DNA of 36,826 nt, taken from IMG/VR virus record IMGVR_UViG_3300047560_001306, positions 1 through 36,826 of that record. The stretch is one strand, 5' to 3'. Shown piece by piece: positions 531 through 15,581 of the stretch. Both the position numbers and the translations under genes were made by a program. The notes below the pieces were generated by a model. It was not told the origin of the DNA, did not search any database, and was given only the letters and a program-made list of their open reading frames with translations. Positions within the stretch are counted from its first letter, which is position 1. Each line of letters starts with the position of its first letter. The stretch is from a virus.

Positions 531-1403
531 ATGTTTTTAGGTCATGTAAATGATTTGAAGGATACAGAATGGCGTGTGTACCCTCAACTCAACAATTGGG
601 CGTTGTGTAACTCAAATGGAAAGTACTTCCTAAGCAGTAACATTTGCCCCCATCAAGGTTCAATTTTAAAAGATACCTCTGGTAAGAAAGCTAGAGTATG
701 TCCGTACCATGGGTGGTCATTTAAGTATACTGGCGAACCATTAGGGTCTGGAACCACCGAACATCAGTGTAAGAACTTAGAGACTTTAGAAACTAAAGAA
801 GTATATATTTGGGAAGGGTTCATCTTTTCAGAACAACATGATCTTCCACCTGCAAGTTTTATCAACACTACACATTTAAAGCTAGTAGAACAACGAGTTG
901 ACACAGTTAAGTCTAATGCTACTAGCATTTTACATTTGTTCCTAGATGTAGACCATATTCCGATTGTACACCCTAGAGTTTATAATCAATTAACTTCAAC
1001 TGAGATTAAATGGGACATTAGAGAATCTAGTAGTGTACAACTAGTTCCTGCAACTAAAGACTTTACTAGCGACTATACTGAATCATTCTTAGAAGAAGAT
1101 AAAAACTTAACTTATGGTGCAGGATGGTTTACTGTTTATCCATACACTATGATGGAATGGCAACCTGGCGCTTGGTTTATTACTGTGTGTAGTCCTAAAG
1201 ATAATTCAACTAATGTAACAGTATACAAATATAAAGATACAAGATACTCTGAAGACAACTGGAAGTTAAACGAAGAAATATGGGAAACTGCCTGGTCACA
1301 AGATTGCGAACAGAGTGAATTAATATCTCCTAATTTTAATTCTAAATATTTAGAAAAACAAAAGGTACACTACAATGAGTGGGTCTCAAAACATAGACTA
1401 TGA
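531..1403 (+). CDS. Rieske-type non-heme iron oxygenase
   Basis: Residues 39-60 hold a complete Rieske [2Fe-2S] motif: C39-P-H41, fifteen residues, then C57-P-Y-H60-G-W. Downstream, DVDHIPIVH (D-x2-H-x4-H) matches two of the three mononuclear-iron ligands of ring-hydroxylating oxygenase alpha subunits. At 290 residues it is shorter than typical alpha subunits (about 350-450), so the catalytic domain is compact. Such enzymes use electrons from a ferredoxin or reductase for O2-dependent oxidation; no partner reductase is visible here and the substrate is unknown. The 3' end overlaps the next gene by 29 nt, which implies co-expression with the PP-loop ATPase. Confidence 0.8.
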   Translation: MFLGHVNDLKDTEWRVYPQLNNWALCNSNGKYFLSSNICPHQGSILKDTSGKKARVCPYHGWSFKYTGEPLGSGTTEHQCKNLETLETKEVYIWEGFIFSEQHDLPPASFINTTHLKLVEQRVDTVKSNATSILHLFLDVDHIPIVHPRVYNQLTSTEIKWDIRESSSVQLVPATKDFTSDYTESFLEEDKNLTYGAGWFTVYPYTMMEWQPGAWFITVCSPKDNSTNVTVYKYKDTRYSEDNWKLNEEIWETAWSQDCEQSELISPNFNSKYLEKQKVHYNEWVSKHRL

Positions 1404-2325
1404 TAGCCTGCCTGGAATGGGCAAAGATAACTGGATCAAATATAGTTTTAATAGAAGTTATACTAATCCTTATCCTGAAGAGGGCGAGATGAAAGTGTAT
1501 TTGCGTCCGCAAGGACCTAGTGAAATTGTTCCTATGGATCAAGCTGCAGATAATGTAGCAAGAGACATTTATTCTAATTACAAAAATTTATATGTTGCTA
1601 TGAGTGGCGGCATAGACAGTGAGTATGTTGCTAAAGTATTGCATAGATTAAACATTCCATTTACTCCAATTATATTTCAACTAGAAGATTTAAATGCTAC
1701 TGATATATGGTGGGCGCATAAGTGGTGTAACGAAAATGGTTATACTCCTAAAGTTGTAAGTACCACCGGCGAAGAGTTTGTTAAGACTATGGTAATGATA
1801 TGCAAAACATATTGTACAAGAGCCGCCGGAGGCCCATCGGCAATGTATCATATGTCAAAGTATGTTCGAGAACAGGGCGGAGTGTTATTAACAGGTGCTG
1901 CCTTTATAGAATATTTCCCTGACGAAAATTTAGATTACTTACTTGCAGAAAATTGGAGGGACTCATCAGTACATGACGCAGATGGTAATGTTAATAAGGA
2001 AGGTTATATATTCCACGAACCCGACTTAGTAAATCGATTTGTAGTCGATGACATGCCATTTAATTTTTTAAGTTGGACTCCAGAGATTGTGTTAGCCTAC
2101 TTTGCGGCCAGAGACATGACAATAACTAGTGCTGAGAACAAGGCTAGAATATTTGATTGCTTGCCAAGACCGAAGTTGGCAGTTGCTGCACCTAATGTAT
2201 TCTTTAGGCAATTCCAACCTGCGTGGGCATTGATGCAACTTAGGAAGTCAGGACTAGGTACTACTGAAATTGATTATCTTGGCACTAAGGACGAGTTGAT
2301 CGAACTTTTAAAGACAGGCATATAA
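1375..2325 (+). CDS. PP-loop ATPase (adenylating N-type ATP pyrophosphatase)
   Basis: The PP-loop signature SGGIDS is at residues 77-82, preceded by a hydrophobic strand (LYVAM). This is the ATP-binding loop of the asparagine synthase, NAD synthase, QueC and tRNA-thiolation superfamily, whose members adenylate a carbonyl or amide substrate. No glutaminase domain precedes it, so it is not a full asparagine synthetase. The remaining 230 residues do not reveal a subfamily to me. The start at 1375 overlaps the Rieske gene; an internal ATG at 1417 is an alternative. The stop overlaps the next ATG (TAATG). The tight packing suggests that the oxygenase, this ATPase and the following protein act in one modification or biosynthetic route, but the product is unknown. 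Confidence 0.75.
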   Translation: MSGSQNIDYDSLPGMGKDNWIKYSFNRSYTNPYPEEGEMKVYLRPQGPSEIVPMDQAADNVARDIYSNYKNLYVAMSGGIDSEYVAKVLHRLNIPFTPIIFQLEDLNATDIWWAHKWCNENGYTPKVVSTTGEEFVKTMVMICKTYCTRAAGGPSAMYHMSKYVREQGGVLLTGAAFIEYFPDENLDYLLAENWRDSSVHDADGNVNKEGYIFHEPDLVNRFVVDDMPFNFLSWTPEIVLAYFAARDMTITSAENKARIFDCLPRPKLAVAAPNVFFRQFQPAWALMQLRKSGLGTTEIDYLGTKDELIELLKTGI

Positions 2326-2762
2326 TGAAAACTACAGAAACACTTGATTGCTCGGTATTTTTATTTTCTGATTGGTGGAATGACAATGTTCCACAATACA
2401 GTCTTTATTTTGATGATGAGTTAATTTCATCTGGAGAAATGCCTAAGAAACAAAACCACGAAATTAAATTTCAACGAACAGTAGGGTTTGGTCCACATTC
2501 TATCAAGGTCAGGTATGAAAATAGACTCCCTACAGATAACTTGTTTAACAATGGGGTATCTGTTAGAAGTAATTACATTCATGTATATCAACTACGCCTA
2601 AATCAATTTTGGGCTAAAGATTTCTTAGATAAAGAATCAACATTAATTGTCGATAATGAACCAACATACAGTACAAGCCGGCCATCGTTACTAGATAAAA
2701 CTAGCACTTATTCCTTTAATTTTGAATCTCCGTTTGCATACTTTTTCTTACCAAAGATTTAA
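2325..2762 (+). CDS. Unknown 145-aa protein, probably beta-rich
   Basis: I do not recognise this protein. It has no signal peptide or membrane helix. It is rich in aromatic residues and in alternating hydrophobic and polar stretches (for example YSLYFDDELISSGEMP and HSIKVRYENRLPTD), which suggests a beta-sandwich such as a carbohydrate-binding or jelly-roll fold. It starts on the last base of the PP-loop gene stop codon (TAATG), so the two are translationally coupled, and it sits between that ATPase and a desaturase. The function is open. Confidence 0.65.
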   Translation: MKTTETLDCSVFLFSDWWNDNVPQYSLYFDDELISSGEMPKKQNHEIKFQRTVGFGPHSIKVRYENRLPTDNLFNNGVSVRSNYIHVYQLRLNQFWAKDFLDKESTLIVDNEPTYSTSRPSLLDKTSTYSFNFESPFAYFFLPKI

Positions 2763-2767
2763 AGTTG

Positions 2768-2775
2768 TTAAATAC
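2768..2775 (+). promoter_or_regulatory. Late-promoter-like element TTAAATAC
   Basis: An imperfect match to the T4-like late consensus, ending 3 nt before the desaturase ATG. If used, its transcript would be essentially leaderless, so it may be fortuitous. Confidence 0.25.
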
Positions 2776-2778
2776 TAG

Positions 2779-3486
2779 ATGAACGAGATAATCTACACCT
2801 TAGTAGTAACACATATAACCATAGTCTGTGTAACAGTATTTTTACATAGAGGACAAGCTCATAGAGGACTACAATTTAACTTTCTGTTAGAACACTTTAT
2901 GAGATTCTGGCTCTGGCTAACAACCGGGCAGGTTACTAAGCAATGGGTTGCTATACATCGCAAGCATCATAGATTTAGCGATAAGGAAGGTGACCCACAT
3001 ACACCGCATGTATTTGGCATCTGGACTGTACTGTTTAAAGGTGCTGTGCTGTACCACAAAGCTAGCAAAGATACTGCAATGGTCGAACAATACGGTGCAG
3101 GCACACCTAACGATTGGATTGAGCGTAACATTTATACACCCCATAGCCGCCTCGGTATTCTTCTAATGCTAGTCATAGACTTATTGTTCTTTGGACCGTG
3201 GGGCCTAGTAATATGGGGTGTACAAATGATATGGATCCCGTTCTGGGCAGCTGGCGTTGTTAACGGACTAGCACATTGGATAGGATATCGTAATGGAGAA
3301 ACTAAAGATCATAGCCGTAATATTAGCCCTTGGGGCATTATTATCGGTGGCGAGGAGCTTCATAACAACCACCACTTGGATCCAGCGAGTTCCAAGCTCA
3401 GTAAAAAATGGTGGGAGTTTGATATAGGATGGGCGTACATTAAACTGTTCTCATATATGCGTCTGCTTAAAATCAAAGATAAATAA
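2779..3486 (+). CDS. Membrane fatty-acid (acyl-CoA/acyl-lipid type) desaturase
   Basis: All three histidine boxes of integral-membrane delta-9-type desaturases are present: HRGQAH (23-28), HRKHH (60-64) and ELHNNHH (193-199). They alternate with hydrophobic segments near residues 5-22, 40-50, 127-142 and 144-165. These boxes bind the di-iron centre that introduces a double bond into acyl chains using O2. The 235-residue length is short for the family (about 260-380) but the core is complete. Desaturases are known as auxiliary genes in some marine phages; a role in membrane fluidity during infection is inference. The gene follows the Rieske/PP-loop cassette after 16 nt and its stop overlaps a late-promoter-like motif. 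Confidence 0.88.
   Translation: MNEIIYTLVVTHITIVCVTVFLHRGQAHRGLQFNFLLEHFMRFWLWLTTGQVTKQWVAIHRKHHRFSDKEGDPHTPHVFGIWTVLFKGAVLYHKASKDTAMVEQYGAGTPNDWIERNIYTPHSRLGILLMLVIDLLFFGPWGLVIWGVQMIWIPFWAAGVVNGLAHWIGYRNGETKDHSRNISPWGIIIGGEELHNNHHLDPASSKLSKKWWEFDIGWAYIKLFSYMRLLKIKDK
3478..3485 (+). promoter_or_regulatory. Late-promoter-like element GATAAATA
   Basis: GATAAATA overlaps the stop codon of the desaturase and ends 5 nt before the next ATG at 3491. The same octamer occurs in front of several minus-strand genes here. Confidence 0.4.
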
Positions 3487-3490
3487 TACT

Positions 3491-3865
3491 ATGAGAGCAA
3501 CAGAATTTATTACTGAAACTGGAATGAAGAAGATCAGCAAAGATCAAAAAGCCGCTATGAAAAATGCGTCTACTTTGCCCGCACTTAATATGTCCACTGG
3601 TTCACAATATATGAACTATCGTATGGGAATTGCGTTAGCAGGTGCTCCTGACTTTCCTACTAAGATGGAAGCTGATAACTGGATCGGCGGTGACCCGTTG
3701 ATTAGTACATATACCGAAGAAGAATTTGAAATGGTTAAAGCAGCGGCCAAGCAAGTTGGTGCGGGTACTATTCAAAATTGGTCTGGTAAGCGTAGCGAAG
3801 AAGTGGCTGATGTTAATAAAACTAGCCCTGTTGCTAAAAGAAAGAAAAACAAATACGGCGTTTAA
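3491..3865 (+). CDS. Small phage protein with capsid-targeting-like N-terminus
   Basis: A 124-residue basic protein starting MRATEFITETG. This start closely resembles the capsid-targeting sequence of T4 internal head proteins, known to begin MKTYQEFIAEA, and contains I-T-E, which fits the L/I-x-E rule of the T4 prohead protease. The rest is hydrophilic with a lysine-rich C-terminus (VAKRKKNKYG). Packaging inside the capsid and injection with the DNA is therefore plausible, but this is inference from the N-terminus only. It is the last plus-strand gene and its end overlaps the convergent D,D-peptidase gene by 4 nt. Confidence 0.7.
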   Translation: MRATEFITETGMKKISKDQKAAMKNASTLPALNMSTGSQYMNYRMGIALAGAPDFPTKMEADNWIGGDPLISTYTEEEFEMVKAAAKQVGAGTIQNWSGKRSEEVADVNKTSPVAKRKKNKYGV

Positions 3866-4596
3866 TAATGTGTAGCAATGAATTCCGCTTCAGGAATTCT
3901 TGTGTGAGTATTCTTGCTACCTAATACTACTACAATCCTGCGCCCAATCTCAGTATCAAGCATCATAACAATGCACCCTCCACTGGCTCGTATGTAGCCA
4001 GTTTTGCTGACTATAAACTCGTGTCGTTTACCAATGATAGGGTTTGTGTTATTAAAGATAAACCACTTCTTCTTTAGTTTAATCTTAACTTGATTTGTCT
4101 TACTGTTTTCTACAATCTCAGGATACTTTGCAGATTCTAAAACAATTTTAATTAGTTCTTCTGCTGTACTAACATTCATAACACTAAGACCAGTTGCTTC
4201 AATATAGTGTGTGTTCTCTAAACCTAACTGTCTTGCCTTGGCGTTCATAGCACGAACACAGTCATCCTTGCCGCCTGGATAGTAATCACATAACATCTTA
4301 GCGGCGGTGTTGTCACTCTTTACTAGAGCTAGTTGAATTAGCTCTTTACGAGTATAAGGTTTTAAAAATTCGTCTTGATCTTGTTTAGCATCTAACACTA
4401 CCATTACGGTCATTAGTTTTGTAATGCTAGCAATTGATCTTTGTTGTTGTGTATTTTCACCTTGTATAATTTTACCAGTGCTGTCTGCAACTAGCCATGA
4501 GTTCGCGGTGATGGACACAGGTTTGGTATCGGCGGCGTTTGATTGCCCATTATATAGAAAGGTAAAAAATACCAGTATAGATAAGATTCTACGCAT
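3862..4596 (-). CDS. D-alanyl-D-alanine endopeptidase/carboxypeptidase (peptidase S11, PBP7-like)
   Basis: The three catalytic motifs of S11 penicillin-binding proteins are present: S57-I-T-K60 (SxxK), S94-D-N96 (SxN) and K198-T-G200. A signal peptide (about residues 1-21, ending SNA) sends it to the periplasm. At 244 residues it lacks the C-terminal beta domain and amphipathic anchor of PBP5/6 and matches the PBP7/PbpG endopeptidase class. It would cleave D-Ala peptide bonds in peptidoglycan. It lies 36 nt downstream of the cyclase gene at the end of the curli-like operon, so it could remodel the wall for a secretion pore or assist lysis; neither is shown. Confidence 0.85.
   Translation of the reverse strand: MRRILSILVFFTFLYNGQSNAADTKPVSITANSWLVADSTGKIIQGENTQQQRSIASITKLMTVMVVLDAKQDQDEFLKPYTRKELIQLALVKSDNTAAKMLCDYYPGGKDDCVRAMNAKARQLGLENTHYIEATGLSVMNVSTAEELIKIVLESAKYPEIVENSKTNQVKIKLKKKWFIFNNTNPIIGKRHEFIVSKTGYIRASGGCIVMMLDTEIGRRIVVVLGSKNTHTRIPEAEFIATHY
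3876..3902. terminator. Inverted repeat at a convergent gene junction
   Basis: GAATTCC (880-886 of the 3.8 kb block, i.e. 3880-3886) pairs with GGAATTC (3893-3899) across a 6-nt loop, extended by CAA/TTG with one bulge on each side. It sits in the last codons of the minus-strand peptidase and just beyond the plus-strand stop at 3865. This is the expected place for a bidirectional terminator, although a U-run is weak. Confidence 0.4.
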
Positions 4597-4632
4597 TTGT
4601 CTATTGTATATTCTGCAAATAATAATGTCAAA

Positions 4633-6684
4633 TTATTTTTCATGTGCAATAAACTCGCCATTCCAATTATCTGGCAAATCTTGTTGCTTCATAAAGTCAC
4701 AGCGTTCAATCCAAATCTTATAGTACTTGTCCATCTGACCGCCAAAGTTACCTTTTAGCTTTTTACACATAGCAGCTGCTTCATCAAACTTCTTAGCTTT
4801 GTATAAGGCATGCATGGCTTCGTGTTGCTCTTTGTCTTTGGAATAATCTACGCCGCGTGTTCTTAATGCTGTATAAATTAAATCTGCTACAGTCTTACCT
4901 TTTGGTTGTAAGTTATCTAACATCAAGTAGAAGAAATCATCTTTAGTACGGTTGTATGTTTCTGCACCAATAATACATAATACACCATATGCTTTACAAC
5001 GAGCTTCTAAACGAGCGGCAGTTGATACCATATCACCTAAGATGTCATAACTGTGTCGTTCTGTTGAACCCATTTCACCAATAAAGCCAATGCCTGAGTT
5101 ACAACCCCAACCCATTGCGGCTGGAGGTAATCCTTGTGCTTCCATTAGCTTGGTATACTCGTCTACCTTGTCCAACATCTCAAGTCCTACCTTAACGATA
5201 GTACGAGCATGGTTAGGATCTTCAATAGGAGCGCCGTGTATGTGCATTGATGCGTCACCTACATACTTGATAACCATACCTTTGTTATCTAGCATAGGCT
5301 GACTGATAGCATCCATGTAACCGTTCATGTACTTGCCAAGTCCAGCAACATCATCACCGTAGTGTTCACCAATAGGAGTAAATCCACGCAAGTCACTAAA
5401 CATAACTGATACATCTTTACGCACACCACGCTTGATTAAGTCTGGATCTTTTTGTAGTAGTTCTACAACTTCTTTAGAGCAGTAGCCAGCAAACTGTTTC
5501 TTAATTGCTTGTTTTTGTAAGAACTCACTTACGAACTTAACACCGTAAGCATGAAGGAGAATAAGAGTAGTACCAACAGCAATGGCGGTAATGTCAACAA
5601 GCCAAAGATTAGCCGTGTACATATACTGAGATACAGGGTACAAAATACCAAGAGCGATAACACCACTAGCAAGTCCAACATAAGTCCACCTCGTTAAAAA
5701 GAGTAAAGCTATGCCCAGTACAGCTAGGGCTAAAATTTCTGCGCCATCGGCCCAATCCGGACGCTGAATAACAACACCATTTACCATAGTGCCAATAATT
5801 GCTGCCTGTGCCTCATGCGGCCACACAGCACCAAGGCTTGTTGGTAATGGATTACTGATACCTGCGGCGCTTGGTCCTACTATAACAATAGCACCGCCTA
5901 GGTCTTTAGGCAAGTCTGTTAAACTTACTGATTTAGATTTTTGACTCCAGTCGATCCAAACTCGTCCTAGGTTATCTGTAGTAACAGGACCAAACTTTGG
6001 AATACGCATTTTCTCAACACCGTTCTCGTTGAGTTTAACCTGGAAGGTTGAATCGCCTGCTGCAACTCTGAGTGTCTCCATAGCTATGCTGGGGTATAAC
6101 TTACCATCAACTGTTACAATTAAAGGTAATCGGCGATTCACACCATCCACCTCTGGGAGTGTGTTAACTATTCCAATACCTGCGGCACTATTTTCTAACG
6201 AGGGAATGTTAGCAATGAGTCCGGGGTATTGTACGATTTGATCTAGCCACTCTGGTCCTAGTACAGCACTACCTGGATTGCGTGGAATGTTTTTTGTTTT
6301 TTGTGCAGGAGCACTACCTAAGATTACCGGAAACTCTTTTAGAGTTTTACCCAGGATGTAGTCACCACCCGTACGGTCTGGTTCTGGCATGAGAATATTA
6401 AGTACGACAAGGCCTGCTCCCCTTGAATATAAATCTCGTATAATTTTGGCATACTCTGCTCTAGGTAAAGGCCATTGTCCATATTTGTCTAAACTTGCCT
6501 CATCAATGTTAACTGTTACAATATTATTTACAGTTGGTTCTTTACTAGTAATTAGTGTATCGAAATATCTTAACCTTACACTTTCGACAAATGTAGGATC
6601 AGCAACTCTAATACCTACAACTAAGACTAGTGTTAATAATGCCGTCCATGGTGATACTGCTATTTTCTTTAATAATTTTTTCAC
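4633..6684 (-). CDS. CHASE2-domain class III adenylate/guanylate cyclase
   Basis: Layout: an N-terminal membrane helix (about 12-28), a periplasmic CHASE2 sensor (about 35-305), three membrane helices (about 312-385), a class III cyclase domain (about 420-610) and a C-terminal helical tail. Metal-binding aspartates are D431 (SDLRGFT) and D477 (VGDASM). K473 sits where adenylate cyclases carry the purine-selecting lysine; the partner position holds S545. The transition-state arginine R558 is present, but the usual catalytic asparagine (VNxAARLE) is S554 (VSTAARLE), so activity may be altered. The GTG start overlaps the stop of the upstream lipoprotein gene (GTGA). FecR plus CHASE2-cyclase pairs are known from bacterial genomes; here both lie in a curli-like operon, suggesting an envelope signal read-out. 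Confidence 0.88.
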   Translation of the reverse strand: MKKLLKKIAVSPWTALLTLVLVVGIRVADPTFVESVRLRYFDTLITSKEPTVNNIVTVNIDEASLDKYGQWPLPRAEYAKIIRDLYSRGAGLVVLNILMPEPDRTGGDYILGKTLKEFPVILGSAPAQKTKNIPRNPGSAVLGPEWLDQIVQYPGLIANIPSLENSAAGIGIVNTLPEVDGVNRRLPLIVTVDGKLYPSIAMETLRVAAGDSTFQVKLNENGVEKMRIPKFGPVTTDNLGRVWIDWSQKSKSVSLTDLPKDLGGAIVIVGPSAAGISNPLPTSLGAVWPHEAQAAIIGTMVNGVVIQRPDWADGAEILALAVLGIALLFLTRWTYVGLASGVIALGILYPVSQYMYTANLWLVDITAIAVGTTLILLHAYGVKFVSEFLQKQAIKKQFAGYCSKEVVELLQKDPDLIKRGVRKDVSVMFSDLRGFTPIGEHYGDDVAGLGKYMNGYMDAISQPMLDNKGMVIKYVGDASMHIHGAPIEDPNHARTIVKVGLEMLDKVDEYTKLMEAQGLPPAAMGWGCNSGIGFIGEMGSTERHSYDILGDMVSTAARLEARCKAYGVLCIIGAETYNRTKDDFFYLMLDNLQPKGKTVADLIYTALRTRGVDYSKDKEQHEAMHALYKAKKFDEAAAMCKKLKGNFGGQMDKYYKIWIERCDFMKQQDLPDNWNGEFIAHEK

Positions 6685-6824
6685 GATCTAATTCCTGCCC
6701 CGTTTGTAGTAGCAGGATCCCAATGGCGGCACCCAGGAGGTTGCCCTTTATCGTTACAGAATGGTATTCCTGCACAGCCTGCTAGGCTCAGTATAAACAC
6801 TAATAATAAGATGTTTTTAAGCAT
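6681..6824 (-). CDS. Very small lipoprotein (47 aa)
   Basis: ATG at 6822-6824, TGA at 6681-6683. The protein starts MLKNILLLVFILSLAGC, a textbook type II signal peptide with lipobox LAGC, leaving a mature peptide of about 31 residues with three further cysteines and a GQPPGC segment. The stop overlaps the GTG start of the CHASE2 cyclase (GTGA) and it follows a tiny membrane protein after 7 nt. A membrane protein plus short Pro-containing lipoprotein recalls Rz/Rz1 spanins, but the position in the curli-like operon makes an accessory role in curlin secretion or cyclase signalling equally possible. A GATAAATA motif (6829-6836) precedes it. Confidence 0.7.
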   Translation of the reverse strand: MLKNILLLVFILSLAGCAGIPFCNDKGQPPGCRHWDPATTNGAGIRS

Positions 6825-6831
6825 CCAATAT

Positions 6832-6996
6832 TTATCTAGATTTTAATAGGGAGTTTTTGTAATTTTCTAGCTCTAGTTTGTGCTGTAAGCGCAACTTTTC
6901 AAGCTGTAGGTTCTGGTACTTAGTGAACCCATAGTCAATTAACCAAGCTATTGTTAGTCCGAGGATGCCGCCTAGTATTTGTACCAATAGTATCAT
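6832..6996 (-). CDS. Small inner-membrane protein with charged C-terminal helix (54 aa)
   Basis: ATG at 6994-6996 overlaps the stop of the upstream curlin-repeat gene (TAATG), so it is coupled to it. The N-terminus (MILLVQILGGILGLTIAWLI) is one membrane helix; residues 21-54 form a highly charged, Gln/Leu/Lys/Glu-rich helix likely to be a coiled coil. The layout is that of a one-pass anchor such as an i-spanin-like or scaffolding protein. No family is recognised. Together with the next gene it fills an otherwise unexplained 310-nt gap. Confidence 0.65.
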   Translation of the reverse strand: MILLVQILGGILGLTIAWLIDYGFTKYQNLQLEKLRLQHKLELENYKNSLLKSR

Positions 6997-8912
6997 TATT
7001 GTCCTTGATTAACAGTAATTCTAGCACAGCCGCCAACTGTTGTACAGTTAGATGTAATAGAATAAAATTGCTGAGTTGATCCGCTTTGTGTTAAGCTAAG
7101 GCTGGCAGGTTGTGGACCAGTTAGTGTTACACTAGCCATATGTGCGGCACTACCTTGTTGAGTAATGTCTACTGATTTATTTCCGCCACTGACACTAACC
7201 TCGGCATAATGATTTCCACTATCCTTTTGTTGGACAACAATATTATTGCCACTGTCGTTAACAGTAATAAATGCACCCTTTATGCCGCCAGTACTTTGTT
7301 GAGTAACACTAACAACATTACTATTGCCGACGAGTGATATATCAGTATAGTTGGCAATAGTACTAGCATTTCCACTTTGGTTAATTGATATATCATTACT
7401 ACTACCATTACCATAATACTTGGCATAGTTATTTTTTGTCCCGCTTTGGTTTACAGTAATAAGGTTAGCGTTACCTACTTGTTCAATGTAGACTTGGCTA
7501 TCAGCTGTTGTTCGGTTGACAAAAGTTTGTACCTTTGCTGTGTTTGTGTTGTTAGCATTAAACGGTGCAGCACTACCACCACAGCATAAAGTATTAGCTG
7601 CTGCCGTTACTGGGTCAACAATAGTAGAACTTGTTGCGGTTGATGTTGTTGTGCTGTTAGCATCGTAGTAATATGTTAGTTCAGCAATCTGCATACTATC
7701 GCAGTTTAGTCCACAACCGTCGCCTGCTTTAGTTGTTGGGAATAACATAAAGTAATAAGCATAGGCTGTAGTGTTTGCTACATCTACTACTGAACTTGTA
7801 GTGTATCTGTTTTCACTTAGACTGATAGCGTCTTCTTTAATCAGCGTCCATGTTGACCCATCATTACTTCCATATAGTTTGTAACTTGTAGGATCACGGC
7901 CACTAAAGTCGTTAGCTGTTGTAACTGTGAATCCAGTAACAGCTCGTCCAGTATTCAATTGTACAGTAACACCGGCATTCTTTTTATCAAAGTTTAGGTA
8001 CTTAGTACTTGTGTTATTATCAAAAGCATTGTTAGGGCCTTCACCGTTAGGACTGTTGCTAGTAGTAGGAATAGCTCTTGTAATTTTTACAGTAGCATTG
8101 TTCATATAGATAGCTGTTGGGGCAGGTGGAGGCGGGCCTCCAGCTGTCGCTCCTGTGCCAGCATTAGTTACTGTCATAGTATTATTATATCCGCCGGCTG
8201 TACCGCTAGTTGTACCACCACTAGCACTTGGGCCGCCACCGTTTGCGTTAGCAACTAGACCAACAGTACTAGTACCTGGCACACCATCACTGTTAACAAT
8301 ACAGGCATTCGATCCACCCCACGCTCCTTGACAAGCACCAAAGCCCGGACTGCTTGTCCAACCTTGTGCTGTTATATTGTTGTAAGGACCAAACTCCGGG
8401 TTATACAATAAGTTACCGCCACCATTAAGTTGTAGTGTAGGAGCACGATACCAAGGACCATAATCACCTGCCCAGTAACTTCCGTCAATGCCATACATAC
8501 TGACTCGAGCATAAGCTACTTGTGATGCTTGTAGAGCAGACAATGTTGTGCTGGTAGTTAATGTTGACCAAGGAACTGTAGTATCAATACAAGGATTACC
8601 ACAAACGGCATTCGGGTTTGGAAGGTTGGCACTATATGCCGATGCTGTTTGTGTTATTAATGCGCCGCTAGCGTTCAAGAATTCTATCTTCACATTGGCT
8701 GTGTCACTTTGTCCTGCACGACCACCACCGTTGTGTGCTAATACACTAAATGTAAAGTTGCCGCCTTGTTGCATAGTGCTGTTGAATACAACATACTGAC
8801 TAATCGTAGTTGTAACATAAGCGGTAGCAATAGCATTGTAAGTCACAGCCTGACTATATGCGCTAAAACATAATGTTATTAAAACTGAGAACAATATTAA
8901 AAAGCGTTTCAT
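6996..8912 (-). CDS. Secreted curlin-repeat protein with discoidin-like domain
   Basis: A signal peptide (about 1-22) precedes an N-terminal beta-rich region (about 23-240) and a region around 275-425 with features of an F5/8 type C/discoidin carbohydrate-binding domain (STKYLNF, YKLYGSNDGSTWTLI). A C-terminal block of about 170 residues carries curlin-type repeats (VYIEQVGNANLITVNQSG, NDISINQSGNAS, and others) following the N-x-x-x-x-x-Q pattern of CsgA/CsgB. Curlin repeats stack as amyloid beta-arches. The design suggests a fibre subunit or nucleator with an attached glycan-binding head. It shares the VYIEQVG segment with the curlin-like protein at 10014-10886. The gene abuts the FecR gene (8912) and the small membrane gene (6996). 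Confidence 0.82.
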   Translation of the reverse strand: MKRFLILFSVLITLCFSAYSQAVTYNAIATAYVTTTISQYVVFNSTMQQGGNFTFSVLAHNGGGRAGQSDTANVKIEFLNASGALITQTASAYSANLPNPNAVCGNPCIDTTVPWSTLTTSTTLSALQASQVAYARVSMYGIDGSYWAGDYGPWYRAPTLQLNGGGNLLYNPEFGPYNNITAQGWTSSPGFGACQGAWGGSNACIVNSDGVPGTSTVGLVANANGGGPSASGGTTSGTAGGYNNTMTVTNAGTGATAGGPPPPAPTAIYMNNATVKITRAIPTTSNSPNGEGPNNAFDNNTSTKYLNFDKKNAGVTVQLNTGRAVTGFTVTTANDFSGRDPTSYKLYGSNDGSTWTLIKEDAISLSENRYTTSSVVDVANTTAYAYYFMLFPTTKAGDGCGLNCDSMQIAELTYYYDANSTTTSTATSSTIVDPVTAAANTLCCGGSAAPFNANNTNTAKVQTFVNRTTADSQVYIEQVGNANLITVNQSGTKNNYAKYYGNGSSNDISINQSGNASTIANYTDISLVGNSNVVSVTQQSTGGIKGAFITVNDSGNNIVVQQKDSGNHYAEVSVSGGNKSVDITQQGSAAHMASVTLTGPQPASLSLTQSGSTQQFYSITSNCTTVGGCARITVNQGQ

Positions 8913-10012
8913 TATCTTCTCAGCACACCAGAATTCTGTTTAATATACACTACATTACCGCCACCGCTGCCGTCACCAATTAGTTCAGTTGCAGGAGCAT
9001 CGTTGTGTACGATTGTAATTCTTGTATTACTACTATACCCCTGTGTTTTAACTTCTGCATAATGATCTTCGTTTGTACGAAATGCAGTTCCTCGACCTTT
9101 TGTTTGTATATCTTGAGCTTCGGGGTTAGTCCATACTACACAAATGTTAGTGCTAGGATTGCATCCAGCTTTGCCAGCTGCTTCCATCATAGCTAAAATT
9201 CTAGCTTGTTCAATAGCATCTGCATTATCTTTAACACGCTGAGCAACTCGCCTTGCCGCTTCTGCTTCAATTTCTTCCATCTCTTTATCTTGTTTAGTTT
9301 TGGCTGCTTCTTTCATTGCTTGTGCAACTTCAGTAGGTCTAACTAAAATTAAATTGTTTCCAATTTTACTTTCAACAGTATTAATTACAACAGGAGGACT
9401 TGGTCTTGAGTTAAGACTAGTAACATAAGTTGCCTCAAATGCTTTATCAAGCTCAACACTACCTGCGCTGTTAGTGACTATAATCTTGCCAACCTTACAA
9501 CGCTGTTCTTCTAACTCATATTTCTTTTGTTCACTATCGTCTTTACAACTAGGTAACAGAACAACAAGACTTTGTCCTGACTCATCAACAGTCATAGAAA
9601 AGTCAGTGCCTCGTACGGCTACTGTAGCTGTAGGAGTATTAACGGCAACTTGTTGTGGATTATTTTTAGCAATTTGTCCGCTAGCATAACGAACAGTTCC
9701 CATGCCAACTTTAAGTGCTAGTTTACCAGCATCGGATTTCTTTGGATCAAACACAAAGTCGTCAATAAGTAATTTTGAATTTTCATTTACTTTTACTTTA
9801 GTGTCGTCTTTAAATGTAAGAGTACTTACACATGCTTGTGTAATATAGGTATCCATGCTTTCAACACTTGAACCTTTTGCACCTGGGAGTTTGTTTTTGC
9901 CGCGTTGGAGTTCACACGCATTTCCCTTATTTTCTGTAACCGAGCCGATACTATCGCCGGCTTTCACGGTTACAGAAAATGTTAGCAGAATGGCTAACAG
10001 GAAAACACGCAT
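8912..10012 (-). CDS. FecR-domain periplasmic protein
   Basis: A signal peptide (about 1-18, ending VKA) is followed by a FecR-type domain (about 25-150) with the hallmark NTPTATVAVRGTDF at 125-138. Next comes a charged helical, coiled-coil stretch around 230-280. The C-terminal 70 residues (DHYAEVKTQGYS, GGGNVVYIKQNSG) resemble the curlin-like proteins encoded on both sides, so the tail may be a degenerate curlin repeat that docks on or senses the fibre. FecR domains usually transmit envelope signals; there is no sigma factor here, but a CHASE2 cyclase lies downstream in the same operon. It lies 1 nt after the upstream curlin gene and its stop overlaps the next start. Confidence 0.82.
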   Translation of the reverse strand: MRVFLLAILLTFSVTVKAGDSIGSVTENKGNACELQRGKNKLPGAKGSSVESMDTYITQACVSTLTFKDDTKVKVNENSKLLIDDFVFDPKKSDAGKLALKVGMGTVRYASGQIAKNNPQQVAVNTPTATVAVRGTDFSMTVDESGQSLVVLLPSCKDDSEQKKYELEEQRCKVGKIIVTNSAGSVELDKAFEATYVTSLNSRPSPPVVINTVESKIGNNLILVRPTEVAQAMKEAAKTKQDKEMEEIEAEAARRVAQRVKDNADAIEQARILAMMEAAGKAGCNPSTNICVVWTNPEAQDIQTKGRGTAFRTNEDHYAEVKTQGYSSNTRITIVHNDAPATELIGDGSGGGNVVYIKQNSGVLRR

Positions 10013-10013
10013 A

Positions 10014-10886
10014 TTACCTCGCTATTGCTGTTGCTGGCAAAAGAATAGTTGCACTACTTGTACGAACTGTAACTGTGTTATTGCTACCGTTAGTACGAAT
10101 ATCTACAGTAGTATCATTAGTACCCTGCTGTTGTGTTGTTATACTATTAAAGTCGCCAGTTATTACTTGTTTTAAATAATGACCGTTTGCACCTGCTGCC
10201 CCGACCTGTTGAATATTCAACACGTTGCTATCACCAGTAATGCTTATATCACTAGTACCATTTGAACTCTTTAATTCTTTAGTAATTTGGTTACTATTGC
10301 CGCCAATTATAGTTGTGCTAGTAATGTCACTACCTACAATATTTTGCATAATCAAATTACTATCACCAGTGATCGATTCTGTAACAATGTTTCTTAAGTT
10401 ACTAGCATTGTTTAAATCACCGATCTCTAATTTAGTTTGGTTGCTGTGTCCAGTAACAGTACTTGTGTATTGATTATCATTACCTTGAATACTATACTGA
10501 GCACTATTGCCATTACCTGTTTGTGTAATAGCTAATATGTTTGAACTACCTGTGATAGTTCCGTAGTTTGTTGAGCTAGGAGCCAATGCTAAAAGTGTTG
10601 TTACACCTGTAGCGTCAACTGTTTTACTAGTCACACCTACACCACCAACATTATTGGAACCACCAACTTGTTGGATTGTTACTGTGTTGCTATCACCGAC
10701 TTGCTCGATGTAGACCTTGTTAGGTCCGGTTGCAGCACTTTGAGCGACAGCTATTCCCGATACTGGCATTGCAGCCAATACTAGTATAGTGAGTAATTTT
10801 CTCGACAACCCACCACCGCCTTTCAATCGTTTTTCCATTCTACTACATAAACAAATTTGGATTCTCTGTTTACGCTCCTTGGTCAT
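10014..10886 (-). CDS. Curlin-like repeat protein (CsgA/CsgB-like)
   Basis: After a basic N-terminus and a signal peptide (LLTILVLAAMPVSGIAVAQS), most of the protein is a run of about ten repeats of roughly 20-25 residues with a (G)(D/N/S)SN-x-(V/I)-x-(I)-x-Q-x-G core, for example GDSNTVTIQQVG, GSSNILAITQTG, GDSNVLNIQQVG. This is the curlin repeat of CsgA/CsgB. The start is uncertain: ATG 10886 has a weak AGG; an in-frame ATG at 10838 (MEKRLKGGGG) gives a more usual signal peptide. TATAAATT lies just upstream (10897-10904). The gene follows csgG by 44 nt, so it is the obvious substrate of that pore. Confidence 0.85.
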   Translation of the reverse strand: MTKERKQRIQICLCSRMEKRLKGGGGLSRKLLTILVLAAMPVSGIAVAQSAATGPNKVYIEQVGDSNTVTIQQVGGSNNVGGVGVTSKTVDATGVTTLLALAPSSTNYGTITGSSNILAITQTGNGNSAQYSIQGNDNQYTSTVTGHSNQTKLEIGDLNNASNLRNIVTESITGDSNLIMQNIVGSDITSTTIIGGNSNQITKELKSSNGTSDISITGDSNVLNIQQVGAAGANGHYLKQVITGDFNSITTQQQGTNDTTVDIRTNGSNNTVTVRTSSATILLPATAIAR

Positions 10887-10930
10887 TGACCTGTTATAAT
10901 TTATAGTTGTGTTGCTATACTACCTCTATT

Positions 10931-12181
10931 TTACTGCTGCTGTTTGTTAACAAGCACATTCTTGTTAACAAAACCTTTACGCTTATTAGCGTCTCTCACT
11001 TCAATCCAATCTCCTTGTGTACTAAGGATTAGGACCAGTGTGCCCTTAGGAAACTGCCAAGTTTTCTGGCTCTTATCATTAGCTTCCTTATAAACATAAG
11101 CAAGCTCTTTAAAAATCATCTCACTTGGTAACTTCTCAAGGGGTACTACTTCTTTTTTTGAGTCTTTGTTGGACTCAACTGTTTTGCTTGTTCCAGTGCT
11201 TTCTGTGTTGCTGGGCTGCGGTGGTGTGGGTGCAGCTTCTGGGGCTCTTTGACCCGAGGTTTGTGATTGAACCAACTCATCTTTCTTCTCCTCTACTTTA
11301 ACTTCTGGGGCAGGGGCGACTTTAGGCGGAGTCATCATTGAAACTACATCAGGCGGCATAGGAGCTGATTTAAACTCATCTTTAAACGCCCAGTGTCCCT
11401 TACGAGCACCTTCATTAATAGTAGCAACTACAGCAGCTTGAATCGCCATTGCTGTTGCCTTATTAATACTTTCATTAATGCTTCCGCCTGTTTCTGCTTC
11501 TACCGCTGTAGTTCCGCTGTCAACAAACTTTAATACACCAAACTTATCCATGTAACTTAATACAGTTTTTGTAACAGTGACGCTAGTTAATACTTCACCT
11601 GAGCTTACACTAACAGTTCTTAAGTTTACAGTAACCGTGTCACTTTGATATTGAGTAGTAGCACCAATACCAAATAGTCGTACACCACTGCCGCCTGTTG
11701 TTGTATTAGAGTCGTATCCAATGATACCACCTTCTACTATAATTCCAGCAAACATCATTGGAGGTAATGGTTTAGCATCACGGCCTTGATATTGCTCGCG
11801 CATCTGACGAATCATTTGGCGCTCTTTAATTAAGTTGTCTAGGCCTACACGCTCAAGTACTGTGAACCAACGCTGTTCACCTACATCTTGTAGGGCCTTG
11901 ATCAAGTAGCTTTCTGCACCTTGTGTAACAGCACTAGATAAACTAGCAATGTTTGGGATACTCTTACGCTGGCCAGTCTTATCTTGGAAAGCATATACAG
12001 CAACTGGCACTGGGCCACCTGCTGGTGGTTTTAGTTTGTTAGTTTCTTTCTTTAAGAAAACACTTTGTTCTAATTCAGGCTCATCAAATTGTTTACCTGT
12101 AACCTTTTCACGAATTGCAGAACCAGTCGCACATCCTGTTAAAATAGTTACAACAGCTAAGGATATAATTGTCTTTTTCAT
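10931..12181 (-). CDS. csgG: CsgG-family curli secretion lipoprotein with C-terminal SH3-like extension
   Basis: A lipoprotein signal peptide with lipobox LTGC (Cys17) is followed by a full CsgG domain (about 35-265): VYAFQDKTGQ, LERVGLDNLIKERQ, VEGGIIGYDSN, RLFGIGATTQYQ and VNLRTVSVSSGEVL all match E. coli CsgG segments. CsgG forms the nonameric outer-membrane pore of curli export. It is 416 residues against 277 in E. coli; the extra part is a Pro/Lys/Glu/Ser-rich linker (about 280-350) and a terminal SH3b-like domain (about 355-416; GDWIEVRD, KGFVNKNVLV). The loop equivalent to the E. coli constriction (Tyr51, Asn55, Phe56) reads SIPNIASLSS, so the aromatic gate is not conserved. csgF lies 10 nt upstream. 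Confidence 0.92.
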   Translation of the reverse strand: MKKTIISLAVVTILTGCATGSAIREKVTGKQFDEPELEQSVFLKKETNKLKPPAGGPVPVAVYAFQDKTGQRKSIPNIASLSSAVTQGAESYLIKALQDVGEQRWFTVLERVGLDNLIKERQMIRQMREQYQGRDAKPLPPMMFAGIIVEGGIIGYDSNTTTGGSGVRLFGIGATTQYQSDTVTVNLRTVSVSSGEVLTSVTVTKTVLSYMDKFGVLKFVDSGTTAVEAETGGSINESINKATAMAIQAAVVATINEGARKGHWAFKDEFKSAPMPPDVVSMMTPPKVAPAPEVKVEEKKDELVQSQTSGQRAPEAAPTPPQPSNTESTGTSKTVESNKDSKKEVVPLEKLPSEMIFKELAYVYKEANDKSQKTWQFPKGTLVLILSTQGDWIEVRDANKRKGFVNKNVLVNKQQQ

Positions 12182-12191
12182 AGTTTAGTCC

Positions 12192-12674
12192 TTAGATCTT
12201 AAATGCCGCATAAGGCATAACCATTTCTGTATAATTTCTAGGATTGCCAATTTCTTCAATTCTAACGATAATATTACCGCCTTGGATTCTCCAAGTAATG
12301 TTCTGTCCTGCAAGATCAATATCTCCACAATTACCTTGACTGTTTGCTGTACAAGTTGGTTGTGTTGTAGTAGAGCCAAATAGGCTGTCGCTAATGCGTT
12401 TAGCAAGTTCGCTGTAAACTCTAGTTTCCATACTTGCTTGGAATCTAGCCTGTGGCGTATTTGCCGCGTCTCTTTCAGCCGCTGCTTTTAAAGCATCTGC
12501 AGCCGCTTTGTTTTTATCTTTTTGTTGGTCTTCTAATTGCTTAATTGTAAGCACATGAGAACTATAACCAACACCACTAAATGCTGGGCTATTAAAACCG
12601 TGTTGTAATTCTGCGCCGAATGCTGGTGCCATTAGACAGCAGATCGCTCCCACTGACGCTAATATCTTCTTCAT
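12192..12674 (-). CDS. csgF: CsgF-like curli assembly factor
   Basis: A signal peptide (MKKILASVGAICCLMAPAFGA) is followed by HGFNSPAFSG, matching the N-terminal FRNPNFGG segment with which CsgF plugs the CsgG pore. A helical middle (KQLEDQQKDKNKAAADALK) and a C-terminal beta region (GDIDLAGQNITWRI) correspond to the CsgF layout. CsgF caps CsgG outside the cell and anchors the nucleator. I chose ATG 12674 because GGAG lies 8 nt before it; an ATG at 12686 would add MERK. It heads the operon directly before csgG, the order expected for a functional pair. No CsgE or CsgD was recognised. Confidence 0.85.
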   Translation of the reverse strand: MKKILASVGAICCLMAPAFGAELQHGFNSPAFSGVGYSSHVLTIKQLEDQQKDKNKAAADALKAAAERDAANTPQARFQASMETRVYSELAKRISDSLFGSTTTQPTCTANSQGNCGDIDLAGQNITWRIQGGNIIVRIEEIGNPRNYTEMVMPYAAFKI

Positions 12675-12696
12675 TTTTCGCTCCATCCATGAATAA

Positions 12697-12780: not shown

Positions 12781-14349
12781 TTATTCTACTTGTATGCCTG
12801 CGTTTTTCTTAATTCTATCTAATTCTGCTGGATTAGATTCATCTGGTTCTGTAGGTTGAACAGTATCAGTAGCAGGTGCAATGGTATTCATTCCACTAGG
12901 AATGCCACTTGCTTGTGGTTCTACTTCAGGTGCTGGCTGTGCAACAACAGGCTCATTCGCTGGTGCTAATTGTTGTTCAGGCCGAGTAGACTTAGTATAT
13001 GTTAAGGTTGTTAAACGCTTTAACATATCTTTCATTTCAATAGTATTCCAGATTTTCTTTTCATCTTCAGTACTACTGTAACGAATGTATAATAAAGGTT
13101 GGCCGCTAGTTTTATCAAATATACGCAACTCTGGTCTAGGATCACCAGTTACTTTGCTAACGCCTTCTCTATATTCACAACTTAAATCAATGTCATCAAC
13201 AATTAATTTGTTGTACAAATTTTTAAAACTGTGTACAGAGCTCTTACCACCAGTTGGGTGTAATGATACTAGTTTAACATTAGGATCGCCACTAGTACCG
13301 TGGTTAGTAGCCATATCAGATATGCGTTTGATAATGCCTGCTTCCTCTTTAGCATCTTTACCAGCTAAGTCTTTCTTTAATTGAGCAGCGGCAATTTTGT
13401 ATGCTTTTACCCAGTATTCAACTTTGCTAGTAATGTTACGCTTAGGTTGTGGAATATCTACACCTAAAGGCCCAAACAGTCTATTAGCATTAAACCAAAT
13501 GCCTTTTTCTGCTGTTGGATTATTAAGTTGACCGCCACCAACTTGTCCAATGTGCGGGCTACCTGCTTTAAGGCTAATGTTAAGGTTCTTTAACTTGCGA
13601 CCATTAACAGTAGCTTCAATGTCTGTTTTACGGCTTTTCTGCTCGCTTTGTCCGTCACTACGAATAACGATAGAGTCTGCTTTACCGTTTAGATAAAAGT
13701 AATCTGCATAGCGGTCAATTTGTCCGCTGTTAGCATAGTGTACAGCACTTGGCAATAGTTTGCCGTATACTTCCCAGAATCTAGGATCTGCCATGAATTC
13801 TAGTGTAGGTGCTCTTAGAGCAATGGTAAATGTAATGTTGTCAGCAATTTTGCTATCTTTGTCATTTACGCTAAATGTTTGGCCGTGTGATGCAATAGCA
13901 TTGTTTAATACATTCTTAACATCATCTTCTGTAATGTCGTCGATGCGATCAGCGCCACGCTTGATTAGTTTAGCAACTACAGCGGCACTTAGTACAGGCT
14001 CGGACAAATCACCTTTGTTTTCTGCTGTACTGCCTTTTTGTCCGGGTGCGTGTGTTAGGCACTTTTCCCAAACTTTTCCGGAACCTTTGATACCAAATGT
14101 TGTTCCATCTGGTCTTTTAAACCAACCTACATCAGCGCCAGCACTAACATCAATAATATTATCTTTAGGACCGCTTGCAACCCACTCTAAATCTTCTGAT
14201 GCTTTAAAGTCAGGTATTACAGCCTGAATCATATCTAATAATGCTTTACCCTTTTTGCTACCTGCTGCAACACGAACTTTGTGACCATATGGATAGCGTT
14301 CCGGCTTGGTAAAAATGCTTGCTTCTGTAAAAATTTCGGAAAGTTTCAT
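12781..14349 (-). CDS. Large phage protein, possible internal head protein; nuclease-like motif tentative
   Basis: 522 residues beginning MKLSEIFTEASIF, very similar to the T4 capsid-targeting sequence (MKTYQEFIAEAS type), so packaging in the head is plausible. The centre contains DIEATVNGRKLKNLNISLKAG, a D...(S)xK arrangement on adjacent strands that recalls, without proving, a PD-(D/E)XK nuclease core; HIGQVGGGQ follows. The last 90 residues are Pro/Ala/Glu-rich and low complexity. No family is recognised with confidence. It is preceded by a perfect TATAAATA, which fits a late virion protein, and lies between the bilin reductase and csgF. Confidence 0.7.
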   Translation of the reverse strand: MKLSEIFTEASIFTKPERYPYGHKVRVAAGSKKGKALLDMIQAVIPDFKASEDLEWVASGPKDNIIDVSAGADVGWFKRPDGTTFGIKGSGKVWEKCLTHAPGQKGSTAENKGDLSEPVLSAAVVAKLIKRGADRIDDITEDDVKNVLNNAIASHGQTFSVNDKDSKIADNITFTIALRAPTLEFMADPRFWEVYGKLLPSAVHYANSGQIDRYADYFYLNGKADSIVIRSDGQSEQKSRKTDIEATVNGRKLKNLNISLKAGSPHIGQVGGGQLNNPTAEKGIWFNANRLFGPLGVDIPQPKRNITSKVEYWVKAYKIAAAQLKKDLAGKDAKEEAGIIKRISDMATNHGTSGDPNVKLVSLHPTGGKSSVHSFKNLYNKLIVDDIDLSCEYREGVSKVTGDPRPELRIFDKTSGQPLLYIRYSSTEDEKKIWNTIEMKDMLKRLTTLTYTKSTRPEQQLAPANEPVVAQPAPEVEPQASGIPSGMNTIAPATDTVQPTEPDESNPAELDRIKKNAGIQVE

Positions 14350-14356
14350 AGTACAA

Positions 14357-14364
14357 TATTTATA
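14357..14364 (-). promoter_or_regulatory. Perfect T4-type late promoter TATAAATA
   Basis: TATAAATA on the minus strand, 7 nt before the ATG at 14349. It lies inside the last codons of the bilin reductase gene. Initiation at the normal distance would give an almost leaderless mRNA. Confidence 0.5.
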
Positions 14365-15046
14365 CTATCTCAGGGAACAAACAATCCTGTATGAAAACCT
14401 TAACATCTTCCTCGTTTAGACCTAAGCTAGTCATAACACGGGGTGTATGTGGGTTTTGTTTTTGATTTGCACAGTAGTAATTTTGTGCAGATTTTGTGCT
14501 TTGCTTGGCAGTATTGTTAGTTTCGCCTACAGCTTCAAGATAATGAGTTAGCCCAGTTTTAACCATGCTAAAGATCTGCTCAAGTTCTTCTTCGTTGCTT
14601 ACATTACCTGCAGCAACCATACACTCTGTAAAGATACGCTCTGCCCAGTCAGGAAGTTTACGAGTTTTATTCCACTGTAGTTTAACAGCTTCTCCAGCAA
14701 ACCAATCAATTAACGGATGTTCACTATCGCCCGCAGGGCTAAAGTCGTAAAAACAGCCGGTAATTTTATTCTTACCAGCTATAACATCAAAACCAAATAT
14801 AGGTGCAGGATTATGCGTATGCGGGAAAATGCAACAATGCATCATCCATAGGCCTTTGGTCTCCCTAGCATCCACAACATCAAGGTGAGCCCGGCGATAA
14901 ATGTCAGAGGCCCAAACACGATTAACCCAACCAGGGCTATTAAAGCGATCCATACCCTCTTCATATACTTCCTTTCCGGTTCGTTCAAATTCGTTTTCAA
15001 AATACTCTTGTATTTGAGTTAATGTATCCCAGACCTTACTTTCCAT
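14360..15046 (-). CDS. Ferredoxin-dependent bilin reductase (PebS/PcyX-like)
   Basis: 228 residues with the FDBR core: NRVWASDIYRRAHLDVVDA, WMMHCCIFPH and PIFGFDVIAGKNKITG. H70 and D87 fall where PcyA-type enzymes carry their catalytic His and Asp. These enzymes reduce biliverdin IX-alpha with electrons from ferredoxin. Phage members are known (PebS in cyanophages; PcyX from marine metagenomic phage clusters beside heme oxygenase); this one most resembles the PcyX type in my judgement, so I leave the symbol open. It overlaps the heme oxygenase gene by 11 nt, giving a heme to biliverdin to reduced bilin route. No phycobiliprotein or ferredoxin gene is in the window. Confidence 0.88.
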   Translation of the reverse strand: MESKVWDTLTQIQEYFENEFERTGKEVYEEGMDRFNSPGWVNRVWASDIYRRAHLDVVDARETKGLWMMHCCIFPHTHNPAPIFGFDVIAGKNKITGCFYDFSPAGDSEHPLIDWFAGEAVKLQWNKTRKLPDWAERIFTECMVAAGNVSNEEELEQIFSMVKTGLTHYLEAVGETNNTAKQSTKSAQNYYCANQKQNPHTPRVMTSLGLNEEDVKVFIQDCLFPEIV

Positions 15047-15581
15047 TGTACAAATCTCGCATCATTTTAATAGCGTATTCAAACGCTACACGAGCTTCGT
15101 CTCCGAGGTCGTCTGTGAGTGTTTGACGAATAGCCATCTTCATTGCATCGGCGTTTTCAAAGTCGTAGAACTTGCCCTTGCTAATGTGCGCCACTTGCTT
15201 TTTAATGATTTGGCCACCGAATAGGTCGCCCATATGGCGGCAATATAAATGCGCCTTAATAAGATGTTTACGGAATTCATCGTTACCTAGTTTGTGTAAG
15301 TATGATTGATACTCAAGTGTTGCTGGAGTTAGATAACAGTAAGAGCCGTCATCAAGTTCCTGGAAGTCTGCGTAGATTGCTTTTAAGCGAGGCAAGTCTG
15401 GCATTGTGTTAAGAAAGCCTTGACGCTTGCAATACCATTCAATTGGATCGTATATTGCTAGTAAGTTGTACAGATAATTTCTGTAATGTTCTTTTTCAAT
15501 CTTGCCGCTAAGTAGCATCTTAGCGAATGTTGTTGTTTCTGCTTCGTGGTGCAGGTCTTTAGTGAGCTCTTTTAAACTCAT
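15036..15581 (-). CDS. ho1: Heme oxygenase (biliverdin-producing, HO-1 type)
   Basis: 181 residues with a proximal histidine in DLHHEAE (H11/H12) and the distal-helix glycine motif GDLFGGQ (118-124), the two signatures of HO-1-type enzymes. It opens heme to biliverdin, CO and iron using reduced ferredoxin. It is coupled to clpS upstream (4-nt overlap) and to the bilin reductase downstream (11-nt overlap), so its product feeds directly into that enzyme. Release of iron may also help the iron-dependent enzymes encoded elsewhere in the window, which is inference. Confidence 0.92.
   Translation of the reverse strand: MSLKELTKDLHHEAETTTFAKMLLSGKIEKEHYRNYLYNLLAIYDPIEWYCKRQGFLNTMPDLPRLKAIYADFQELDDGSYCYLTPATLEYQSYLHKLGNDEFRKHLIKAHLYCRHMGDLFGGQIIKKQVAHISKGKFYDFENADAMKMAIRQTLTDDLGDEARVAFEYAIKMMRDLYNGK

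Follow-up and report, generated by a model that had tools for sequence, protein, structure and literature searches.

A phage-encoded curli-type gene module with a variable-headed substrate and a modular CHASE2-cyclase

Organization of the locus

The window, by which we mean the whole stretch of DNA analyzed here (36,826 b), is the IMG/VR contig IMGVR_UViG_3300047560_001306, whose other families include a phage ribonucleotide reductase, an exonuclease, and a tail-spike-like protein. An initial annotation, made from the letters alone, had placed a run of nine open reading frames on its minus strand, and all nine were found there. Pfam searches gave matches over the cut-off for CsgG with an SH3b domain, CsgF, FecR, F5/8 type C, CHASE2 and cyclase, and S11 peptidase. 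In gene order, the run comprises:

12192..12674, minus strand: csgF-like gene for a secreted pore-associated protein (Pfam CsgF, PHROG 35372; GGAG-ATGAAG start; ORF as called to 12686)
10931..12181, minus strand: csgG-like gene for an outer-membrane export pore lipoprotein with a C-terminal SH3b tail, residues 359-410 (Pfam CsgG and SH3_4, PDB CsgG)
10014..10838, minus strand: curlin 1, a secreted substrate with curlin-type repeats (Curlin_rpt below cut-off, Q/G/N repeats, beta-arch model; ORF as called to 10886)
8912..10012, minus strand: secreted FecR-domain protein lacking an anti-sigma domain (Pfam FecR; signal-peptide-like N-terminus)
6996..8912, minus strand: curlin 2, with an N-terminal beta-sandwich, a disordered stretch, a discoidin/CBM32-type head (283-397), and seven curlin-type repeats (472-636) (Pfam F5/8C, AlphaFold2, Foldseek)
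6832..6996, minus strand: transmembrane (TM) protein of 54 aa with a single membrane span, not conserved in relatives
6681..6824, minus strand: lipoprotein of 47 aa with an LAGC lipobox, with a counterpart only in L034/L035
4633..6684, minus strand: CHASE2-cyclase, with a periplasmic sensor, membrane spans, and a class III cyclase domain that has Ser at residue 554 for the transition-state Asn (Pfam, motif alignment, spans)
3862..4596, minus strand: S11 D,D-peptidase with SxxK, SxN, and KTG motifs (Pfam, motifs), accessory

The ORFs as called are separated by -4 to +44 nt. From csgF onwards, there are gaps of 10 nt (csgF/csgG), 44 nt (csgG/curlin 1), and 1 nt (curlin 1/fecR), overlaps of 1 nt (fecR/curlin 2 and curlin 2/TM protein), a gap of 7 nt (TM protein/lipoprotein), an overlap of 4 nt (lipoprotein/cyclase), and a gap of 36 nt before the D,D-peptidase. 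Two starts were revised: csgF probably begins at 12674 and not at 12686, because GGAG followed by ATGAAG is found there, and curlin 1 probably begins at 10838 and not at 10886, because M17 is invariant. Sequence-based methods predict signal peptides in proteins of the operon. A scan of the operon for promoters and terminators gave a modest excess over shuffled sequences and no firm operon promoter. A promoter-like site lies at 4631-4603, ahead of the D,D-peptidase, which is possibly driven by a promoter of its own.

The module in other phages

PHROGs has viral families for CsgG, CsgF, FecR, and the CHASE2 cyclase, a first hint that the module was not new. Searches with tblastn matched Pelagibacter phage HTVC008M and Methylophilales phage Melnitz, whose GenBank records carry csgF-csgG-curlin-fecR-curlin-cyclase in the order of the window. 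A scan of viral contigs identified relatives in 67 loci, on contigs of up to 353 kb; the window's gene order is mostly shared by these contigs and the two isolates, often on hundreds of kb of phage DNA. A T4-type portal is encoded on three of the largest contigs (353, 280, and 219 kb). Order and strand are retained where a contig spans the genes, with the exception of L042, in which the cyclase is inverted and displaced. Additional genes separate curlin 2 from the cyclase in some loci, and some others yielded no cyclase within the stretch examined. Because 67 other viral contigs and two isolates carry relatives, we conclude that the DNA is that of a phage and rule out a bacterial contaminant joined by misassembly.

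The phage literature already covers the system, the sensor arm, and the principal ideas on what the system does, and the role of phage curli genes has been a standing question since at least 2020. Zaragoza-Solas 2020 reported CsgF and CsgG and suggested 'sibling capture' (PMC7029224). Wittmers 2022 described a CsgF-CsgG-CsgA/B-FecR-CsgA/B-adenylate cyclase module in phages, noted the absence of CsgE, found transcripts of the module in the ocean, inferred an alphaproteobacterial origin, and listed superinfection defense, aggregation, and import as possible uses (PMC9599517). The FecR/cyclase arm, which had appeared new from the window alone, is therefore not: it is present in the Melnitz and HTVC008M records and was published in that study. 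The same work reports a histidine kinase before csgF in podoviruses, whereas the gene upstream of csgF in the window (12781-14349) has no Pfam match, and no histidine-kinase domain was found in it. Compared with the type VIII secretion (T8SS) module of pelagiphages and Melnitz, the window shares the gene order from csgF to the cyclase on T4-like phage DNA, and adds a CBM32-type head on curlin 2, an SH3b tail on CsgG, a D,D-peptidase, and two tiny genes. To a system that is mostly known, we add a substrate open to testing and a sensor enzyme of striking modularity.

The predicted export pore

Two type VIII (curli) components are clearly present in the window according to Pfam: CsgG (8e-51, 172.7 bits for a cut-off of 20.8), which also matches CsgG in the PDB (2e-49), and CsgF (1.5e-6, 28.8 bits for a cut-off of 25.8). 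The PYPASNF loop of E. coli CsgG, which we take to be the pore constriction, corresponds to SIPNIASL in the window protein, and the E. coli residues are not kept. The tail of CsgG matches SH3_4 (2e-6). Among 25 aligned CsgG sequences, 9 match SH3_3, and tails of this kind can be seen in additional loci. This frequent SH3b tail was not found described in the portions of the phage T8SS literature available to us. CsgE, which is not essential for the type VIII secretion system, was found in none of 13 phage records. The initial annotation had called the locus a complete module of export, substrate, and sensor. Domains, synteny, and predicted folds support such a module on phage DNA, but "complete" is a loose term given the lack of CsgE in these records.

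The curlin-type substrates

Nearly every relative retains two substrates of the curlin type. In the window, their Curlin_rpt scores (20.4 bits for curlin 1 and 16.9 bits) both fall just short of the Pfam cut-off of 20.7. However, the Q/G/N ladder of the repeats is conserved among relatives, Curlin_rpt is matched by 19 of the 37 curlin-2 relatives (best 5e-8), and curlin 1 is modeled as a stack of strands (beta-arch). On balance, the evidence leans towards the curlin-repeat assignment of the initial annotation. The model of curlin 1 had no significant fold match in the PDB.

The discoidin-like head that had been noticed on one substrate is real, and no description of it was found in the literature as accessible to us. 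Curlin 2 has an F5/8 type C domain (Pfam, 1e-12), and AlphaFold2, run on a 28-sequence alignment, predicts an N-terminal beta-sandwich, a disordered stretch, a discoidin-type sandwich, and a repeat tail. In the tail (residues 472-636), it places seven two-strand repeats of ~24 residues each with a pLDDT near 87; the overall pTM is low (0.38), so the relative placement of the domains is not given by the model. Foldseek matched the head best to a GH92 mannosidase (E 4e-8), followed mainly by galactose-binding CBM32 modules, galactose oxidases, and sialidases. Heads vary on the conserved repeat tail: F5/8 C occurs in 17 of the 37 curlin-2 relatives and PA14 in 5. Curlin 2 heads are, as judged from these comparisons, exchangeable and of a putative sugar-binding type, a trait that we did not find described in the accessible parts of the phage T8SS literature. 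A curlin tail that bears a sugar-binding head suggests display at the surface, and the product lends itself to direct testing.

The variable heads bear on the suggestion that a curlin coat hides the receptors of the infected cell and so blocks superinfection (PMC9599517). Surface remodeling of this sort fits the exchanged heads and the LPS-type ORFs (LpxH-like, glycosyltransferase) that neighbor the module in some relatives. Yet head exchange would also fit changing host glycans, and shielding is not separable from adhesion or aggregation on these data. We consider shielding rather unlikely to be the explanation.

The FecR protein and the accessory genes

The FecR domain (1e-9) is the sole Pfam match in its protein, which has no cytoplasmic anti-sigma domain and no mid-protein membrane span, its only hydrophobic stretch being N-terminal. 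Its predicted architecture, with no anti-sigma part, sets the protein apart from the known type of iron regulator. This matters for the proposal that the pore is an uptake channel through which the infected cell would take in nutrients or cofactors, FecR being a sign of a link to iron. The idea was suggested in PMC7029224 and PMC9599517, and it agrees with the lack of a CsgE gate in the 13 phage records. It leaves the two conserved secreted substrates unexplained, and the iron-regulator role on which it draws is unsupported. Uptake therefore strikes us as very improbable.

The D,D-peptidase (Peptidase_S11, 4e-42) has counterparts after the cyclase in 8 related loci. The lipoprotein, which carries a lipobox, is recognizable only in the two near-identical loci L034/L035, and the TM protein, with its membrane span, has a counterpart in none of the related loci; the ORF that precedes the lipoprotein of L034 does not resemble it. 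Judging from this distribution, neither the peptidase nor the two tiny proteins belong to the core of the module. We also considered the TM protein and the lipoprotein as a spanin pair, which conservation does not support, most relatives having neither.

These genes are relevant to the lysis pore suggested for Melnitz CsgGF by Buchholz 2022 (PMC9004378). CsgG and CsgF would form a pinholin-like pore that times lysis, the D,D-peptidase and the TM protein/lipoprotein pair would aid lysis in a spanin-like manner, and the curlins would be secondary. A peptidoglycan enzyme, a small TM protein, and a lipoprotein are indeed found within the operon, but neither the pair nor the peptidase is conserved, and a separate cell-wall hydrolase is encoded at 22500-23030. 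Moreover, PMC9004378 took the fiber genes as missing. Because two substrates are conserved, the lysis pore fits poorly, and we regard it as quite doubtful.

Exchange of the cyclase catalytic domain

The CHASE2-cyclase matches CHASE2 (8e-40) and Guanylate_cyc (1e-13) in the same protein. Motif alignment indicates that it keeps both metal-binding Asp, the base-binding Lys/Asp pair, and the transition-state Arg, roles that we presume from what is known of class III cyclases. Ser takes the place of the transition-state Asn in the window and in 24 of 33 phage and SAR116 rows, the other copies having Asn, and Ser is invariant within the clade of the window's cyclase.

The catalytic-domain tree places the Ser type and the Asn type in one group each, both with full support. 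On the tree built from the sensor halves of the same proteins, these labels need six changes, of which well-supported branches alone force at least four. The sensor halves of L062 (Asn) and L064 (Ser) are 87% identical whereas their catalytic domains are 49% identical; conversely, L016 and L064 have sensor halves 47% identical and catalytic domains 86% identical. These comparisons indicate that catalytic domains have been repeatedly exchanged behind related sensors and that the cyclase is a domain chimera. We did not find this swapped enzyme half of the phage sensor described in the accessible T8SS literature; a limited search, restricted to text within reach, returned nothing on phage adenylate cyclases, nor on FecR with type I secretion, and the available portion of a cyclase survey has no mention of the Asn position.

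The Ser replacement makes the activity of the enzyme uncertain. It could have killed catalysis, leaving a pseudo-cyclase that acts through binding only, and its invariance in the window's clade is compatible with this. Against it, the remaining catalytic residues are retained, and Asn- and Ser-type domains substitute for each other behind related sensors. A dead enzyme thus appears improbable to us, and the fact that catalytic domains stayed intact through at least four exchanges suggests that the output of the cyclase matters to the phage. No cNMP-binding domain or receptor was found in 13 phage records, including two complete isolates, so that a cyclic nucleotide would have to be read by receptors of the host.

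Bacterial relatives

A genome scan identified Ser-type CHASE2 cyclases in three SAR116 genomes, the sole bacterial kin found for the Ser clade. The motif is rare: a strict DNA pattern, which could overlook variants, found it in 1 of 385 genomes of the class (the centre genome itself) and in 3 of 136 genomes of the order. Asn is present in every one of the 27 alphaproteobacterial CHASE2 cyclases whose motif could be read. The SAR116 catalytic domains nest among the phage ones (support 97/95), with 72% identity to that of phage locus L064, while the sensors are only ~23% identical. A secreted FecR-domain gene follows each of the three cyclases. In two genomes, the cyclase-FecR pair closes an operon; the third contig ends just upstream of the pair. 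The operon reads:

L075 1-8980 and L076 1-8706: repeat-rich protein (PPEAM repeats), C39-ABC exporter, cNMP-binding HlyD adaptor, Ser-type CHASE2-cyclase, secreted FecR protein

In L075, Pfam confirms the C39-ABC and the cNMP-binding domain of the adaptor. No CsgG was found in two of these SAR116 genomes. The SAR116 type I secretion operon and the phage module thus have in common a Ser-type CHASE2-cyclase that adjoins a secreted FecR protein and is linked to an exporter; this exporter is a C39-ABC transporter with a cNMP-binding HlyD adaptor in SAR116 and CsgG/CsgF in the phage.

CsgF is over the cut-off in 3 of 289 genomes of the class. One of them, L117, has a well-read csgF-csgG-curlin-curlin operon, with neither FecR nor cyclase found in the 16 kb around it. 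CsgF, CsgG, and curlin-type substrates are common to the phage module and to bacterial curli operons (E. coli csg and the alphaproteobacterial L117), from which the phage module differs by the lack of CsgE and by the added FecR and cyclase. Four loci in bacterial MAGs (L071-L074, from bins of Rhodobacteraceae, Pirellulales, and Flavobacteriaceae) were not taken as bacterial sources. They are short contigs with phage-like curli operons, two of them in one bin with coverage 64 and 5.4, and are probably misbinned phage contigs.

Because the SAR116 cyclases adjoin a secreted FecR protein and a type I exporter with a cNMP-binding adaptor, they suggest a secretion-linked sensor that is portable. The secreted FecR protein and the CHASE2-cyclase might together fit different secretion systems (the phage T8SS, type I in SAR116) and give cyclic-nucleotide feedback on export. 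In phages, the sensor would stay matched to the module, whereas the catalytic half, be it canonical or Ser-type, would be traded among phages and between phages and bacteria. We put this forward tentatively, as an idea with a modest chance of being right. The SAR116 operon nevertheless gives a concrete hypothesis for FecR-CHASE2 cyclases, namely cyclic-nucleotide control of protein secretion.

Proposed function

Our preferred reading, which we hold to be an even call, is that the phage encodes a type VIII (curli-type) export module along with an envelope sensor of its own, and that the infected cell thereby gains a sticky, glycan-binding coat. The sequence itself shows which genes are present, their order and conservation, and the exchange of heads and of catalytic domains; export, fibers, sensing, the signal, and any benefit are inferred. 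CsgG, with CsgF at its mouth, would form an outer-membrane pore, perhaps tethered to peptidoglycan by the SH3b tail, and would export the two curlin-repeat proteins. Curlin 1 would make up the body of the fiber, which curlin 2 would join through its repeat tail, displaying a CBM32-type sugar-binding head (PA14 in some other phages). The resulting coat may alter the contact of the infected cell with other cells or phages. The secreted FecR protein and CHASE2 could act as a periplasmic sensing pair that reads the state of export or of the envelope and drives the cytoplasmic cyclase, whose cyclic nucleotide would most likely act on host receptors.

Domains, synteny, the fold of curlin 2, head exchange, signal peptides, catalytic-domain exchange, and the SAR116 pair of cyclase and FecR point towards this export module, as does the transcription of the conserved module in the ocean (PMC9599517). 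Pointing the other way are the sub-cut-off curlin repeats, the lack of a PDB match for curlin 1, of CsgE, and of a phage cNMP-binding protein, the Ser in place of the transition-state Asn, and the divergent constriction loop. In addition, Melnitz-infected cells were described as free of clumping (PMC9004378).

Neighboring genes

Upstream of the operon, the window encodes a ferredoxin-dependent bilin reductase (14360-15046, minus strand) that overlaps a heme oxygenase gene (15036-15581, minus strand), a bilin pathway pair. Such pairs are known from aquatic phages (PMC11480375), and bilin reductase homologues lie 0.4-4 kb upstream of csgF in many curli loci. Beyond the other end of the operon, on the opposite strand (531-3486, plus), are Rieske-domain, asparagine-synthase-like, and fatty-acid-desaturase genes; L019 and L051 likewise have the desaturase close to the curli module.

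Other loci have different neighbors. A secreted-looking DNA/RNA non-specific endonuclease (domain match for L014) occurs just after curlin 2 in L014 (9700-10515) and L061 (7909-8724). A large amidoligase-like protein lies between curlin 2 and the cyclase in L015 (13674-15683), with kin in L021, L026, L036, and L052, and the cyclases of these loci are of the Asn type. Finally, a PQQ-type alcohol dehydrogenase, by eye methanol dehydrogenase-like, is found near the module in L046 (15551-17416), a viral contig of 104 kb, and related loci have porin and PstS-like ORFs.
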